Below are positions 18,361-48,900 of a stretch of 64,000 nt of DNA, one piece after another. The notes below the pieces were generated by a model. The model was not told the origin of the DNA. It worked only from the letters and a program-made list of their open reading frames with translations, and made no database searches. Position 1 is the stretch's first letter, and each line of letters starts with the position of its first letter. The position numbers were made by a program, and so were the translations under genes. The DNA is from Chloromonas sp. AAM2 (lineage: Eukaryota; Chlorophyta; Chlorophyceae; Chlamydomonadales; Chlamydomonadaceae): positions 1-64,000 of the forward strand of contig QAXH01005078.1 of NCBI GenBank assembly GCA_004335635.1. Reading direction: 5' to 3'.

Positions 18361-21300
18361 TCAGGTGGCTAGCACTGTGGAGCTCATACCATTGCCCACA
18401 GCAGACGGACTGATATTCACTGCTGCAGTTGCGGCTGTAGCCAGTGCGGCTGCGGCCGGCAGTGCCTGCGGAGTGGCAGCCGCCGCGGCTTGAGGCGCGC
18501 AGTGCTGGATGCGTGCAGTGGACTGCATGACCCGCCGTAGGTCCTCAATGCGGAAGGGCTTGACAATGAACTCCTCAATACCAGCCTCGCGACACCTGCG
18601 CGCCAAGCAGGCGACCAAAGCCGATCAAGAGATGAAGCAGGAAACTTTTTGTGCAGGCAACTAGAACTTGAACTGGCCTGATGCATTCGGCCACTCAATA
18701 GCAGGGCAGAATAAATTGAGCTATATTCCCAGGCATGCAAATCCTTATACTGCTATGCTGCTCTATTGACTCTGCATCAACAACCCCTACTCTGCCCATG
18801 CAGCCGCGTTTGGCTTCCCATGTTTTCCGCTGCATACCTGTCATGGAGTGCTTGGAGCGTGTCCGCTGACAGCGCAATGATCCTGGGCCTGTTGTTGGGT
18901 GGGTAGGTGGCCACGATGCGCCGTGTGGCCTCCAACCCGTCCATGAGAGGCATGTGAATGTCCATCAGGATGATGTCATAGCTCTGAGCACAGGGCAGCA
19001 GCAAAGCGTACACTGGTGTGCAACAGATGGGGCGTGGCGTGCAGCAAAGCACAGTGCAAAAATGAATGCACAAAGTGCAAGGCTTGTACAAGGTGGAGGC
19101 AGGTCGCAAACATGTACTGCCATCATGTCACTAGCAATTGAAAGCAAGGGCCGACCGTTAAGTAAAAGCCGCAGGGCAGATGTTCAGTGAACGCAAGGGC
19201 TTGATCTTAAGGATAACAGAGAAGGACTCCTCACCTTCTTCTTCAGTGCCTCCAGGACTTGCAGACCGTTCTCCACAACATCGGTGACCGCTCCTCCAGA
19301 TATCTGCTGCAGCACCTTGAGCACTACCTTCTGGTTCACCTTGTTGTCCTCGGCGATCAAAATACGCAATGCAGGTGTCGCTGTTTGCTGCTGCTGCTGC
19401 TGCTGTTGTGGTTTGCTGTTGTTGCTTGTTGGTTGCTGTTGCTGTGCAGGAGGGCTGGGCTGTGCCTTGCCAGCCTGTGGCACAGGGCCAGGTTGCAACC
19501 CTGATGCCTGGCTAGGCGTCACGCCGTTGGATTGATGGGTTGGCTTGCTCGCTGCACCAGAGGCCGTGCTGCTACTTTCGTCCTGTAGCTCAGTGTTCTC
19601 TGGAATAACTTGGGGCAAGTTCATGCCGGATCCATGCGAGCGCCAGGGCAGAGCAGTGCTGTTTGGCTGCCGGCCAGACGAGCCTGTGTTGGCTCCCGAT
19701 TCAGCTGCACCCGTGCCGTTCATTGCGTTGCTTGACATAGCCGAGGCGCGGGCTGCCGCCGTTGCTAGCATCTGCTGCACCAGCGCACGATCCAGCGAAC
19801 TGCACCCAGTGGCACAGGAAACAACGTGAGTTGCTGGAAGGGTCGGCAAAGCTCACTTGCAGAAACAGCATCACGTCATGTGTTCTTGCATGCATCTAGC
19901 TCGTTCTCAGCACAAGGGAGAGAAGAAGACAGTGGCAAGACTCGGACTCGGATCGTAACCAGTGCCGAACAAACGCAACGCATGATAGCAGCAGAACCAG
20001 TTGCAATCATATGAATATATATTTCAAAATCTGTCTCACCTGTTGTCCAGGCTGCTGCGCCGTGCAAGTGCCAGAGGGTCGTACGCGTAGGGTCGCATGA
20101 ATCCTCCAGAGAATCCTAACGCGCCATCGGTGCTGTTCAACACCGCCAACTGCCCGCCTACGTACTGTCCTCTGAGCTGCTGCTGCGGCTGCTGCTGTTG
20201 CGTCAGCAATGCAGCGGTCAAGCTGGCACCATGACCTCGGTCGCGCCAGGATTTGAAATCCGCGAGCTGCGCGGGGCTGATCGGCTGAGGCGTGACTTTG
20301 GGCCCTGCCGTCTTGCTACCTGGCACCCACTTGAGCAACACTGTCGACTTGACCAAGGCATTGGCCAGTCGTGCATGCAGCACTGGCTCGGGCACTATGA
20401 CGACCAACGGGTGAAGGTTGGCAGTTAGCAGTTGCCGCGAACCCACCGCAACAACCGGCCGGCCCTTCCATCCCGACCGCAATGCGGCTGCAGCCTTATC
20501 AGTTGAAACGACCAACATGTCTTGCGGTTCGCCTTGGGGCGTGGTCGCACCTCCGTTCGTGTTTACAGATGCGCTGTCTGCTGGGCGATTGCACAGACAC
20601 GGCTGCATGCCTAGCTGCTTGCAGCTCTGGCTGATTTGTAACGCCAGGCCTGGGTGACTGACATCGACCAGAACCCTGCGTCCCTCCAGTGCCAAGTAAT
20701 CATCAGGGGACAGCACACTGAACTGGCCCTGGCTCACAGTGATGCTGTTGGTGGCTTCCCCAGTGGTGTTGGTGCCAGTTGAGGCTGTACTGCTGGCATA
20801 GTCATTGGCTGGAGCACGGTGTACGGATGACCAGTCCGCATCCTCTGCCGCAGCAGGGGCAGGGGGATCTGACTCAGTTGAGGAGCGGCCTGGAGCCCGG
20901 GGCGTCTCGCTCGGGCTGTCCAAGTGTACCGAAGCTGCAGGAACTGAGTCAGTGCGCAGGTTTGAAAAATAGTCTGCAGTGTTGGGAGTGGCTGGGTCCT
21001 GCTGGCTTGGGTTTTGGAAGTCGGCTGGCACGCAGAAGTGGAAGGTGCAGCCCTTGTCTGGGCCCGCACTCTCCACCCACACTGTGCCTTGCATGAGATC
21101 AGACAGCCGCTTGCAGATGGCCAGGCCCAGCCCTGTGCCGCCATACCGACGAGCCATGGTCTCAGAGCCCTGCTTGAAGCACTGGAAAAGACTGCTAGCA
21201 ATATCAACAGGAATGCCAATGCCTGTATCGCGGACGCTGATCCGCACACGCCGGCCGCATCCAAGCTGCAGGCCAGCCGCTTCGGGGGCTGCTGCAGACT

Positions 21301-24300
21301 TCCTATTGCTGCCTGTGGTCGGCGAGTCCTCTAAACTCTTCCGTCTGATCACCGCTTCAGCCCATGCCTGCTCCTCTTCTTCTAGTATAGAGGAGGTAGG
21401 CCCCGATGTGGACCGGCCAGCGCCTGCATTGCCGCCCATCAGCTTGTCTGCAAGCATGCTGCATGCCGCAGGCACATGCACGGGGAGAGCACGGGCTGAA
21501 CACTGCTGGTTGCAGCCGTTTTCCTGACAGCAGCAGGGTTGCCGAGCGGGTAGCGGCTCAACACACACATCCACGTGCACTTCCCCTTTCTCGGTGAACT
21601 TGACAGCATTGGAGAGCAGGTTTGTTAGCACTTGGCGCAGTCGTATGGCGTCTCCCATCAGCAGGTGTGAGACGGACTCGTCGTCACATGTGTAATAGAG
21701 TGACAGCCCCTTCTTGAGCGCATCGGGAGCGACAATCTGCGTGCACAGCAAGGCATGAACGTTCACTCCCAGAATTGCGAGTCCACTCCCCACGCCCTCA
21801 CCAAACTGTCCTGCCAAAACATGCAGCCCAGCAGTTCAACACCGCATCATGGTGCACCATGCTTTTTGCAGCATTCCTTCACCTGATACTTTGATTCCAT
21901 GTACGCAAGCCAAAGGCTGATTCTCCCAATGCAGCGCATTACATCTTCCATCAGCTGTCACATGCTACCTTGAACCTCAGCAAGGACTGGCAGCGCCCCT
22001 TAACCCACCTCTATGCACGCCTCGATAGACCTCCTCAGGCATATGGGCTCGTGGTTCAGACTGATGGATCCCTGGTCAAGCTTGGAGAAATCCAGAATAT
22101 CACCTGTCAGCACAACGCCAGCACAGCACATTCAAACACCTACAAGACTGTACCATGGGCAGAGGATCATATGGGACAGGCGACGTTGACTGGCGTGCGA
22201 GTAGAGCTGATCTCGGCTGCATAACATCCGTCAGTTTTGCTTGGAGTGTGTGCCTGCTTGTGTCCGAACAAGCATGAGAGCTCTTTTGCACACAAAATTG
22301 TTGGCTTCCCGCTCACCCAGGATGCCGAGCAGTGAGTTGCCGCTCTCCAGAATGGTCTCCGCAAGCTCCCGCTGCTCGGGGGTCAGGCAGCTGGCCAGGA
22401 GGAGTTGCTGCGGTCAGTAACACCCGCACAGGGCAAGGGTCTGGTACTGGAAACAGGGCGGGCTGTTACGAGCTGTTCTGACTGCTCCTGACACGCACCT
22501 GGTATAGCAGGACAGCTGCAATTACAGCAGGCAGCAGCCTGAGGGTGAACCATCACGTTGCTGTTTTGTAACCTATGCCATTGGGTATGCATTGATCGGG
22601 CATATGCACGCACCTGCCCATGTCTGCGTGCCGACACTCACCGCTGTGGCCATCATGCCATTGAGTGGCGTGCGTATCTCGTGGCTCATGTTCGCAAGGA
22701 ACATGCTCTTTGCTTCCATGGCTGTCTCAGCGGCTATCTTGGCAGCCATCAGCTTACGCTCCTCCTCCTGATAACGCCAGTCAATTTCAGCAATAATAAT
22801 AATGATGTGAATGTATTGTTTTTATTCTTCCATCTTCCTGCAACACACATGCATCGAGTCTGTGCCAGGACGCGTTGCCACAGCTGCTTTACGCACAGAC
22901 AAAGCCATCTTTCAGGTGTGCAGTCCGAAAAAAAGATCTAGATCAGGCAGGTTCGCAAGCGTCGGCAGCGGGAAGGACGCGGGCAGGTCATTTTGAACCA
23001 AGCCCACGACTACCATGCAGGCCGTATATCCAGTTTCAACACCACGTGCTGGCCACTCGTTGTGTTTCCTTGCCTACCTTGCGCCTGATGAGCTCTGTTA
23101 CGTCACTCTGTACTCCGATGTACGACACCAGATCGCCCACTTCGTTCAGCACCGGTGTAATGCTCAACCTATTCCAGAACGCCTCGCCTGCGCACAAATA
23201 CACAATAACCTGATTACGATAGAACAATGCACGCAAATCAAATGCTCTAGGATCTTGAAGCCGTCCTGCAAGGCGATCAATTCGCATGCTGCTCGCTTCC
23301 GCGTTTGCTGCGGCATCCGTCTGGCCCACCTGTCTTCTTGTAGTTGAGCAGCTCCACCGTTGCCTTGCGCCTGGCTGCCACAGCCGCCTTGAGCGTGGCC
23401 ACAGCATCTCTGCTGGTCTCCTCGCCCTGTAGAAAGCGGCAGTTGCGCCCCATGACGTCCTCTCGCGTGTACCCGGTGATCTGAAGGAACGCGTCGTTCA
23501 CGTAGATCAAAGGGGCATCCGGTTGTGAAGGATCGGCGATGGTGATGCCCTCGCTGCAGCTGCTCAGCGCATGGTCACGTAGGCGCCAGCTCATCTCCTC
23601 CGACACTGCGAGGGGGACAGGAGGGTATGGATACTATAGACAGATATACTATATGGACAGGAGGGCAAGACAGGACGAGTCTGCCAATGTCTGCCACTCT
23701 CTGCCCAGTCAGAGGCTATGCACCTCGGCCAGTCAGAGGCTATACACCACCTTTCAACATGCCAATCAGAGTAGCATAACTTATCATGACTGCTTGCAAC
23801 AGCTACCCTGCCTCCCGGCAACATGCGGAGATAGAACACACATGCAGCCTGCAAAAGCCATGCCAGTGGGTCGAAATGACTCCTGAGCTGCATCATCACG
23901 ACTACAACACGACCCTGGCAGGATCAAGTATCGCCAATTGCCTGGAAACTGCCCCACAACAAACGTACAGCAAACTCACTGCGTGCACTGATGTCCTCGT
24001 GGCAACACAGGTACTGCACAGCTGGGGGCCGGCGGCAGGCATGGACACTGCCATTGGCTGCCAGGCCACTGTCGCCACGGCTGTCTACAGGCCGTGAAGA
24101 CAAGGCACTCTGCTGCGGCGGCTGAGCCAGGCGGAACATCGCGGCAGCCAGTGCGTCCCCATTCTGCTGATCATGGGAGGTAGCACTGGTGTCCTGCTGC
24201 ACAGATTGCAGCTGGCTGCTGGAACGGTTGAGCAAGTATCCAGGTGGAGGTTCACTACCGTTGCTGCAGAGGCTGTTACGTGAAGTTGTGCCGCTGGCTG

Positions 24301-24760
24301 ATGGAGGTGACTGTGCAGGCATCCATGCAGCTGTCATCCAGGGAAGCTGGTTGATAGGGGTGATGGATATAGCACTGCTCCACGATGCCGACGACGAGCC
24401 AGGCCCACCATCCCGCTTGTAGCACATGCATCGGATGGTCGTGGCTGTGTTGCAGTGGAGAGCTGCTCGCAGTGCGGCCATGTCTGCAGGGTTGCTGGCA
24501 GGGCCAAGTATGGCGCCCAACCCGCCAGCTTGCAACTCCGTCATGGTCAGGCCTGTCATTTCCTCCAGGGCAGGGTTTGCGTACAGAACGCGGCCCAGCT
24601 CGTGCTGGCGCAGCTCTTCCACATCCTCAGTGCTAACAGGGTCGGCGGCACACCAGTCTGAATGGTGAACCACCTCTATCAGGGATATACCCTGCCTCAA
24701 GCACGCGATGCCTGATGTCAAAAGCGAATGCAGGTCGTCTAGGCTTGGCGTGAGGCCCAT
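18361..24760 (-). CDS. PAS-LOV hybrid histidine kinase (probable blue-light photoreceptor)
   Basis: Ten minus-strand exons join in phase to 1373 residues: 24760-23980, 23605-23330, 23187-23078, 22767-22642, 22407-22317, 22103-22009, 21736-20040, 19799-19235, 18983-18838, 18595-18361. Domain order: divergent PAS (~20-150); Ser/Gln-rich linker; LOV (~275-385) with the flavin-binding signature GRNCRFLQG, its photoactive Cys at about 316; HisKA with [13 protein letters not shown] (phospho-His ~418); HATPase with [25 protein letters not shown] and GGTGLGLAI; a receiver-like domain lacking the Asp; a true receiver (~1200-1330) with [10 protein letters not shown], acceptor Asp ~1255 in [12 protein letters not shown], and FIVKPF. 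Known for the family: blue light forms a flavin-Cys adduct that controls autophosphorylation and relay. A ~110-residue Cys-containing insertion sits inside the HATPase between 543 and 655. In-frame codons continue upstream to 24958, so a longer N-terminus is possible. Confidence 0.96.
23705..23750. repeat. 24-bp tandem duplication in a kinase intron
   Basis: ccagtcagaggctatgcacc is followed directly by ccagtcagaggctatacacc in the intron between kinase exons 1 and 2. It looks like a simple slippage or duplication product. Confidence 0.7.
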
Positions 24761-45928: not shown

Positions 45929-48900
45929 TCAACAGCCAGGATCCAACTTTGGGAGCTCTGCCGCTGCTGCTGGCCCGACCACCTCCACCAGCCGCTCATG
46001 CAAGTACCGGGCAACAGCCCCACCATCCCCCTCAATCGCTTCCCATTCCCAGTAAGGCACGTTGAGCACTGCATAGCCTCGCGCTCGCACGAACCTATCA
46101 CGCAGCACCTTACTGCCCAGCATGGATCGGGGCCATGTGCGTGTGTAGTGCCTGGGCCCGTTGGCTTCCACAGACACGTAGCACCCCCCAATGTGCACCA
46201 CTGTGTCCATACTGAACATGCTGTCAGCAGTGAGCTGCTCCAGCTGGCAGCGAACACCCAAAGCCTGCAGTGCCTGCAAAACAGTACATGGCACGTACAT
46301 GAGTTTGACAACGTCCTTATGACTGTCGCCTGGTTGCGGCGCAGCGCTCAGATGCAGGCAGTTCACGCCCATGTTTGAACATTCCTCATCCCTCATCTAA
46401 TAGCCACATGATCCTTGCTAGAACTGTGTGCCCTCCTAAGCGGCCAATCAGCAGGTTCGGGTGCGTGCGGGTGCAAGCCAGCACACACAATGAAGCAGGG
46501 TGCTCAACACCTGCGAATGCACGTGCTGCTTGCATACCTTGTACAGTTCGTTCTGGAATGAGCTGACCATGCACTCCTTGCGCGTGTAGTCCTGCCACAC
46601 AGCGGCGGCCATGTTGTGTAGGCTCTCGGGTACAAGCTCATGGACCAGGGCTGTGCCTTGGCTGCCATTCTTGTCCTGCAACACGAACACGGCACACACG
46701 TGCGATGTACACAAGCACCACCAGCAGGGCCAGTACAAGGCGGTACCACATCTTGACCGTTGGATGTGGTCGACGGCGATGTACAGAGGCACATCACTAG
46801 TCATCCAGGGCCAGTACATGCTTACGAGCGCTGAACGTGGTTCACAATGTCTTGCTTGTCCTCGGGAGGTGCGCACGACCACACGACGATTAATTGAGTT
46901 TATGCATTCTCCATGCTACACTGGTCACAACTGGTCGCGGTCAACATCCTTGCAAGCAGCACGTGCCTGTGCACTCCAGTACATGTAATGCTGCACAGTG
47001 GAGGGCGACATCCCCACAGGCAGGAAAGGATTGTCTTTCAATGACTGCTCACCTGCAGCCACATGATGAGCTGAAACAACTGTGACATCTGCTTGTTGTA
47101 GAGGTGCTCGCCATTCAAACCGATGCCCTGCCTGGGCACTGCAGCAGTGTCCTCCTGCAAGCTGCCTTCCCCACCCATGGCTGCCTCGTTCGCCATGCCC
47201 TGTCCCCCGCTTGTGACATCTGGCGCCTCATTTCCAGGGAACCCCACTGCCTGTGCTGCGACCACTGCAGCTGCATCACCCTCAGGCCATGCATCCTCAT
47301 CCGCCTGTGCCCTGCTGCTCCGCAAGCCTGCGGCCCGGGATCTACGGGGCGGCGACTGCAGCATGTAGACGCTCTGAATCTGCCACCGCTGTGCAATCAG
47401 ACCGAGGGAAGCGCGCAACAGCGACTCGTCTGCATACCCAAGCAGCATCAGCGCCCAGAGCACTGTCATCAGAGTCGCATTGCTGACGGAGCTGGCCCGC
47501 TCACAGCAGGCCGTGCGGAAATACGCCGCCACCGCTGCACAGGCAGCTGCATCAGCGTGCTGCACCTGGGCCAGGGAAACCAGCACGCTGGCAATCTGGG
47601 AAAGTGACATGTGTGTGCAGCTGGGTGTGAGACTGGCTAGCTCCTTTGCTGAAACTTGAAATAGCTCAGGGTGGTAGTGGCCCGCGTATCCAAAGGACCA
47701 GATCAGACTCTGAAAGGACGCAGGGGAGGCCACCCACGCCTGAGGGTCCGCTAGGCACACCTGCTGTGCCAGACGGAATAGCTCTTCATCGTAAACATTG
47801 GCCATGGCATGTGCCCACAGCACCTGACTAACATCCTGAAAGCAGACAGGCGCCTGTGACACTGCTGTGTGCCCTACGCCTTGTCCCTGTTCTTCCTGCC
47901 GTGCTTGCTGGTCGTGTATGCGCCTGAGGCGTTGCGTGAGCAGCGGTGTGAGGCTTGAGAACTGAATCGAGTCTGTCATGTCGCCCGCTGCCAGGGAGTA
48001 CAGTAATCGTGCCAGGTTGTGGGTCTGCCATGACTCGTGCTGAGCGAGGGCGGAGGCTATGGCCGCATGCACCACAGGCGGATGCACCTGCGAGGTGTGG
48101 CCAAGACATGCTTCCCATCAACTGTGGGGCTGAAGGTCAACCCTGGCTCATTTTGAACTGGGGTCTCATCTCAGGCTGTGACTCGACTCTTCATTTGTGG
48201 TGCCAGCCCTGATGCTCAAGGTTGACACAGAGAAGCAAGGACCTGATAGTTGTTGCAGCTTGCCTCCTGCCAGTCATGTTCCTGCCTTTGATTCTGTAAT
48301 GCTGGGCACGTTGCAAAGTTGGTGACATGCATGGCCAACCCTGCGAACAGTGTGTAGAATGTCTCACCTGCTTGGCCCTGACCATGGCCCATACGAGCTG
48401 TGCATGGTGTGCAGGTTGCAGCTGCTCCCCGTGCTGCTGCGCCCGGCGGCTAAGGGCAGAGAACACGTGTGGCGAGGGGACACCTGCTATTGCGTACGCC
48501 CACGCTGTGTTGGCAACGCCTTGCGGCGTGAAGCCCGCTATGCAAGCGACGACGGCCGGAGCTGCCGCCACAAACATACCCCGCGGTGTGTAGCGCATGG
48601 TGGCGCATGCCCACAGCACATTGCACAAGTCGATAGCACAGAATTCCTGTACTTCGCTCTGCGCGACACAAGCACAAAGAGACATTCGGGTGGGCAGCAG
48701 TAAACGTGTTCCCATGCACCTTGACAGCGCCCAGCCCGAGCTTGTGATTGCAAGTCTGTCAAGACGTATATGCCCACATATCTGCCGCAATTCCGCCGTT
48801 CCCCCGAGTTATGTGCACGAACTGGCCTTGCAAGCCAAGGATAGACAGTCGCCCGCACTCGTTTAGGTATAATAATAACAACCAGCCGTTTGCGTCCTCC

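Follow-up and report, generated by a model that had tools for sequence, protein, structure and literature searches.

Does the gene at positions 18361..24760 of this window (the whole 64,000-nucleotide stretch of Chloromonas sp. AAM2 DNA that we analysed) encode an intact blue-light phosphorelay sensor, and how is it related to the algal LOV-histidine kinases (LOV-HKs) already known? The gene lies on the minus strand and consists of ten GT-AG exons (24760-23980, 23605-23330, 23187-23078, 22767-22642, 22407-22317, 22103-22009, 21736-20040, 19799-19235, 18983-18838 and 18595-18361), whose phases fit together and which encode 1373 amino acids, from MSFSPSLEDLH to STVLAS. The product is collinear with P0001 of Pleurastrum insigne (972 identities over 1363 aligned residues) and with P0002 (858 identities over 1283); 9/9 splice junctions are gap-free in the alignment to each, and the start and stop agree with those of P0001, which ends in STVLAT. 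The coordinates, strand, length and exon number of the earlier note proved correct. An alternative acceptor for exon 7, at 21805 (1396 aa), was discarded because the relatives read ...SIEACIEIVAPD...; the acceptor at 21736 (1373 aa) fits both P0001 and P0002. The nine introns argue against a bacterial origin. Judged from its sequence, the gene is real, intact and green-algal, and its predicted product is a blue-light phosphorelay sensor. Elsewhere in the assembly (G000), contigs C1417 and C2267, which are probably bacterial, have histidine-kinase, PAS and receiver matches in unbroken frames of 1400 and 1046 aa. Scanning 10 of the 61 neighbouring stop-to-stop frames of at least 150 aa gave one sub-threshold Pfam match; the open frame at 47041-48117 of the window (minus strand) matched FAST_1 with 24.9 bits, below the cut-off of 27.4.

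Profile searches against LOV and HisKA, which the earlier note had proposed, bore out its list of PAS, LOV, HisKA, HATPase and receiver domains. The proximal LOV domain scored 217.6 bits against a LOV profile whose training set includes the window protein, and Pfam returned PAS_9 (95.6 bits, best stretch 279-384), HisKA (75.8 bits), HATPase_c (90.8 bits in two stretches) and Response_reg (78.5 bits, aa 1205-1318), all above their cut-offs. The key residues C316, H418, N536, D663, D1255 and K1308 were all found. The domain order is ex-LOV, LOV (C316), DHp (H418), CA, pseudo-receiver and receiver (D1255, K1308), and an informal look noticed no membrane part.

The photosensory LOV domain, matched by both the LOV profile and PAS_9, covers residues 261-389 (exons 2 and 3, 23078..23605, minus strand). 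It contains the adduct-cysteine motif GxNCRFLQ, in the form GRNCRFLQG (23424-23450), with the C316 codon at 23439-23441. The flavin-contact positions are filled by N348, N358 and Q379 (codon 23108-23110), which we take to be the Asn/Asn/Gln flavin contacts of known LOVs. Across 29 proteins of clade B, the group to which the window protein belongs (see below), the proximal LOV has the Cys in 28/29, both Asn residues in 29/29 and the Gln in 28/29, the exceptions being P0014 of Parachlorella kessleri (Ser for Cys) and P0028 (Leu for Gln). The proximal LOV of P0014 reads GRNSRWLQG, without the Cys; its preceding LOV retains the Cys. Of the 29 proteins, 16 have a distance of 104 between the first residues of GRNCRFLQG and SHEIRTP and 10 a distance of 105, the others being P0028 (106), P0031 (118) and P0034 (131); such near-constant spacing is what a helix in fixed register needs. 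In the structure model of P0013, a single helix (H321-374) runs from the end of the LOV into the DHp. Foldseek with this model gave the LOV-histidine kinases 4gcz and 8a6x as best matches (E 4e-30 to 2e-27), with overall TM-scores that are low because the domains are differently placed, and phmmer with residues 261-553 of the window protein ranked 4gcz first.

The N-terminal region (aa 10-260, 23980..24733, minus strand) had been described as an extra PAS domain. The extra unit is there; it is not a plain PAS, and its sequence marks it as a decayed LOV with a long insert before the last strand. It scored 18.0 bits (E 3e-6, 36 proteins searched) against a LOV profile made from the same family, and AGGLGAIL occupies the place of GRNCRFLQ, so that Leu81 (codon 24518-24520) replaces the adduct Cys, which is absent. 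The corresponding unit in the P0013 model has PAS-type strand order and a disordered insert. A comparison by hhalign of the region with LOV gave 99.8; we prefer the window protein's own profile match, because the hhalign input contained the true upstream LOVs of relatives. Less decayed N-terminal units occur in P0008, P0011 and P0013 (47-66 bits to the LOV profile), and clade B elsewhere has up to five PAS/LOV units, of which three bear the Cys in P0003 of Myrmecia and two in P0007 of Elliptochloris; three Coccomyxa proteins have one Cys-bearing unit and one with Ala. In the family at large, many of the upstream units no longer have the Cys. To us this suggests an old array of LOVs in which decay spared the unit adjoining the kinase.

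The kinase core and the C-terminal receiver are complete. The DHp/HisKA domain (aa 390-493; exons 4-6, 22009..22767, minus strand) carries SHEIRTP (22666-22686) with H418 (codon 22681-22683), a His kept in 32/32 aligned proteins. The HATPase_c/CA domain (aa 494-735; 21011..21736, minus strand), with N536, D663 and GTGLGLAI, is split between the N-box and the G1 box by roughly 90 residues of weakly conserved sequence (aa 560-650), an insert that counts against a working kinase, although the relatives vary here too. Of the 32 aligned proteins, 31 or all 32 keep H418 and each of the N, G1 and G2 residues that were scored. The predicted phospho-accepting receiver (aa 1203-1318; exons 8-10, 18529..19369, minus strand) keeps E1209, D1210, D1255 (codon 18960-18962), S1286 and K1308 (codon 18559-18561), and its Asp and Lys are present in 31/31 ungapped rows among the 32. 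With the HisKA His, the N and G boxes and the receiver Asp and Lys all in place, the domains and intact residues support the central claim: an algal hybrid histidine kinase with a LOV sensor and every part of the phosphorelay core.

Downstream partners were sought in the same genome. A profile search found only one HPt-family match (contig C873 of G000, 49.7 bits); at this locus (L019, 1274-1812, plus strand) the reading frame contains HQFKGSSASLG downstream of a putative intron placed by eye, making it a probable HPt gene. There were also 21 response-regulator matches, some on bacterial-looking contigs, so that the parts needed for a full relay are present. We infer that the window kinase feeds the L019 HPt, a relay layout also proposed for Ostreococcus (PMC4343026, PMC12704426).

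The earlier note counted two receiver regions. The C-terminal one stands, whereas residues 844-966 (20318..20686, minus strand) have no acid pair, no switch Lys and a Ser at the inferred acceptor position. When the region was aligned by hand to the model's strand ends, the acid-pair place (V852/S853) is acidic in 0 and 4 of 32 proteins, the acceptor place (S904) is Asp in 0/32 and the Lys place (E943) is Lys in 3/32; H854, W916, G925 and P944 are invariant in 32/32. One feature counts against reading this region as a pseudo-receiver: D906, two residues past S904 and inside a predicted helix, is Asp in 19/32 and Glu in 5/32. Comparison by hhalign of residues 840-966 with the family's own receivers failed as a sequence-level receiver test (probability 0.35), and that with the clade-A counterpart gave a probability of 27 over 19 columns. 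What supports a receiver here is therefore the AlphaFold model with its fold comparison, in which residues 844-966 have a receiver fold, Foldseek giving modest E-values (best 1.5e-4; 8 matches at or below 0.001). Pfam also weakly matched CbiJ here (20.1 bits, below the cut-off of 28.6), which we take as a shared strand-helix pattern. On the model, the region looks like a pseudo-receiver, and only the C-terminal region looks able to take phosphate. A homologue search with residues 836-1070 returned 4 proteins of 7878 candidates, each a named or Pfam-listed LOV/PAS histidine kinase; it depended on 5-residue words in common and overlooked members already known, and so cannot show the block to be absent elsewhere.

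The linker of about 230 residues between pseudo-receiver and receiver is mostly unalignable, with one exception, RRSSLDNSSL (aa 1052-1061; 20040..20062 plus 19793-19799, minus strand), which is split by intron 7. In the column ranking (32 of the 33 clade-B-type proteins, without P0023), R1052, R1053, S1055, L1056, D1057, N1058, S1059 and L1061 form the sole cluster of columns at least 80% identical; only P972, R991 and R1112 reach that level elsewhere in the linker. The consensus RRxSLDNSxL, which was derived from the same proteins that it scores, matched at 8/10 or better in 25/33 and at 7/10 or better in 30/33. The 33 proteins are the 28 clade-B rows of the tree, P0014, and P0026, P0032, P0035 and P0052, the last four of which have no LOV and owe their assignment to clade B to the kinase and pseudo-receiver block rather than to the tree. 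The low scorers, P0026 and P0032 (6 each) and P0023 (5), are in or near the shuffle range (maxima of 5 to 7 across proteins). None of the 7 clade-A proteins scored above 5; among the 81 other listed matches, P0054, which probably belongs to clade B although outside the tree, scored 9, one scored 6 and none else exceeded 5. A text search of the literature for SLDNSAL found nothing, and this motif is the one point that is possibly new here. In P0026, P0032 (Chlamydomonas sp. UWO 241), P0035 and P0052, the start and the DHp His are at most about 60 residues apart and no LOV motif turned up, possibly through true loss or through cut gene models.

What might the motif do? RRxS is the consensus of basophilic Ser/Thr kinases, and the candidate site for Chlamydomonas or Volvox is RRTSLDNSALER. 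For the bacterial kinase ShkA, a short conserved DDR motif has been put forward as a lock that ties the receiver side to the pseudo-receiver and so keeps the kinase inactive (PMC7010744). The linker motif resembles DDR in position and differs from it in letters, and in the P0013 model the stretch 792-912, motif included, has pLDDT below 50, with no docking seen; a lock is therefore offered as a hypothesis only. As a speculation to which we give a small chance, clade-B kinases might be double-locked, by light on the proximal LOV and by the motif docked on the pseudo-receiver. Docked RRxSLDNSxL would then hold the receiver away from the DHp, as proposed for the DDR lock of ShkA, and phosphorylation of S1055 would open the lock, because the motif resembles a basophilic Ser/Thr kinase site. 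Such a receptor would be an AND gate for blue light and a Ser/Thr kinase (phototropin, PKA or CDPK, for example).

The earlier note placed the protein in a small group, a description that does not hold: homologues sharing its domains are spread over Trebouxiophyceae and Chlorophyceae, and PMC6137987 had already listed LOV-HKs of Ostreococcus tauri, Chlamydomonas, Dunaliella and Coccomyxa in 2018. Local identities are about 43-66%; most matches span 1/5 to 2/5 of the query, P0001 covering 100% and P0002 96%. A tree of LOV-plus-kinase cores was made from the window protein and 56 hand-picked proteins of 120 listed (from 5797 matches), P0014 being lost through the G2-box pattern that we applied, to leave 56; it was built by a quick method with SH-aLRT support and without bootstrap, and has several long branches. 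The named chlorophyte proteins split into clade B (22 named rows) and clade A (7), each set apart by a branch whose SH-aLRT support is 100; as drawn, clade B has 28 rows (SH-aLRT 100) and clade A 19 (SH-aLRT 99). Within clade B, whose members extend to Chlamydomonas (P0024) and Volvox (P0015), the window protein groups with Pleurastrum, P0002 and P0004. An exon-by-exon search of this genome with one clade-A query found, tentatively, no clade-A gene. Two LOV-type units with SRFLQGxGTDP stretches, separate from the window gene, were seen at L010 and L016 (G000 C954) and are probable pieces of a phototropin; another protein with LOV-like units, L018 (G000 C1639), has LGVNCKLLQ and LGCSCLCLSGPDTS.

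We consider it very probable that the window protein is a chlorophyte clade-B LOV hybrid histidine kinase, a blue-light receptor that relays through its C-terminal receiver and an HPt. For its working we infer flavin binding, the sign of light control, the phosphate flow and the gating as follows. Blue light would form a flavin-C316 adduct in the proximal LOV, and the resulting change would pass through the helix into the DHp, setting the autophosphorylation of H418 by the CA domain. Phosphate would move from H418 to D1255 of the C-terminal receiver, then to the His of the HPt and on to response regulators. The N-terminal ex-LOV would not be photoactive and may serve structure or dimerisation, and the pseudo-receiver would take no phosphate and gate the receiver.

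Three rivals to this reading were weighed. That the LOV and the kinase are separate genes, mis-joined in our model, is barely credible, being largely refuted by the collinear relatives, whose alignments cross every junction without a gap, and by the fitting phases. It is very unlikely that the protein is the orthologue of the Ostreococcus LOV-HK with the same clock-input role. The two have the LOV-DHp-CA-REC order in common, and the O. tauri protein is described as a blue-light clock input (PMC4343026, PMC9612821, PMC12704426), but it (P0076) falls in clade A, not with the window protein in clade B. Moreover, Myrmecia, Elliptochloris and Coccomyxa sp. Obi each have one clade-A and one clade-B protein, and this co-occurrence in single algae makes the window protein and the studied receptor paralogues rather than orthologues. 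We also regard as unlikely a vestigial LOV, with the kinase sensing another cue through an upstream unit or the pseudo-receiver and light being secondary. The loss of the Cys from many upstream LOVs, the Ser in the proximal LOV of P0014 and the four LOV-less proteins with the same kinase and receivers (their gene models possibly cut) speak for it, as does the reported ability of bacterial pseudo-receivers to bind ligands (PMC7010744, PMC12632262). The proximal LOV of the window protein, however, retains every scored contact residue, and its Cys is kept in nearly all clade-B proteins.

The window gene is thus one more well-supported member of a widespread family, and its interest lies in clade B, a set of probable blue-light receptors. 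A term search for LOV-HK in a 2025 review of algal photoreceptors (PMC12558739) gave no occurrence, and a search by titles and abstract openings, with subscription papers mostly outside its reach, uncovered no paper on the function of any clade-B protein. Ostreococcus has the only algal LOV-HK that we found to have been studied, and this one belongs to the other clade, so that clade B is unstudied as far as these searches show. Its arrays display graded LOV decay around one nearly always retained domain, and it has a sharply conserved linker motif where a bacterial kinase has a proposed lock; both features are testable in Chlamydomonas relatives.

Among the closest known systems is P0001, the LOV protein of Pleurastrum insigne, entered in UniRef as A0A126X0S6 under the label histidine kinase, which matches over its full length with the same domain order and differs in species and linker lengths. 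The multi-LOV kinases P0003, P0005, P0006 and P0010 of Myrmecia and Coccomyxa belong to the same clade B and share the kinase, pseudo-receiver block, motif and receiver, but have four to five PAS/LOV units where the window protein has two. Caulobacter ShkA (6qrj, 6qrl) has the same order of DHp, CA, pseudo-receiver, linker motif and receiver; its Rec1 ranked fifth in the Foldseek search with the pseudo-receiver model (E 4e-4), and 6qrj aligned with the P0013 model over 701 columns (TM 0.52 by target, rmsd 19.9). Unlike the window protein, ShkA has no LOV, and it has the DDR motif and c-di-GMP described in PMC7010744, neither of which was seen here. The O. tauri LOV-HK shares the intact Cys and His and a C-terminal receiver with the window protein, whereas one LOV-type unit was found in it, with no N-terminal ex-LOV and no RRxSLDNSxL (best 4/10). 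In plant phototropin, finally, the likeness lies in the LOV core, which by phmmer is near in sequence to the LOV structures of NPH1-1, presumably the oat phototropin, and the difference in the output: phototropin is a Ser/Thr kinase, the window protein a histidine kinase.
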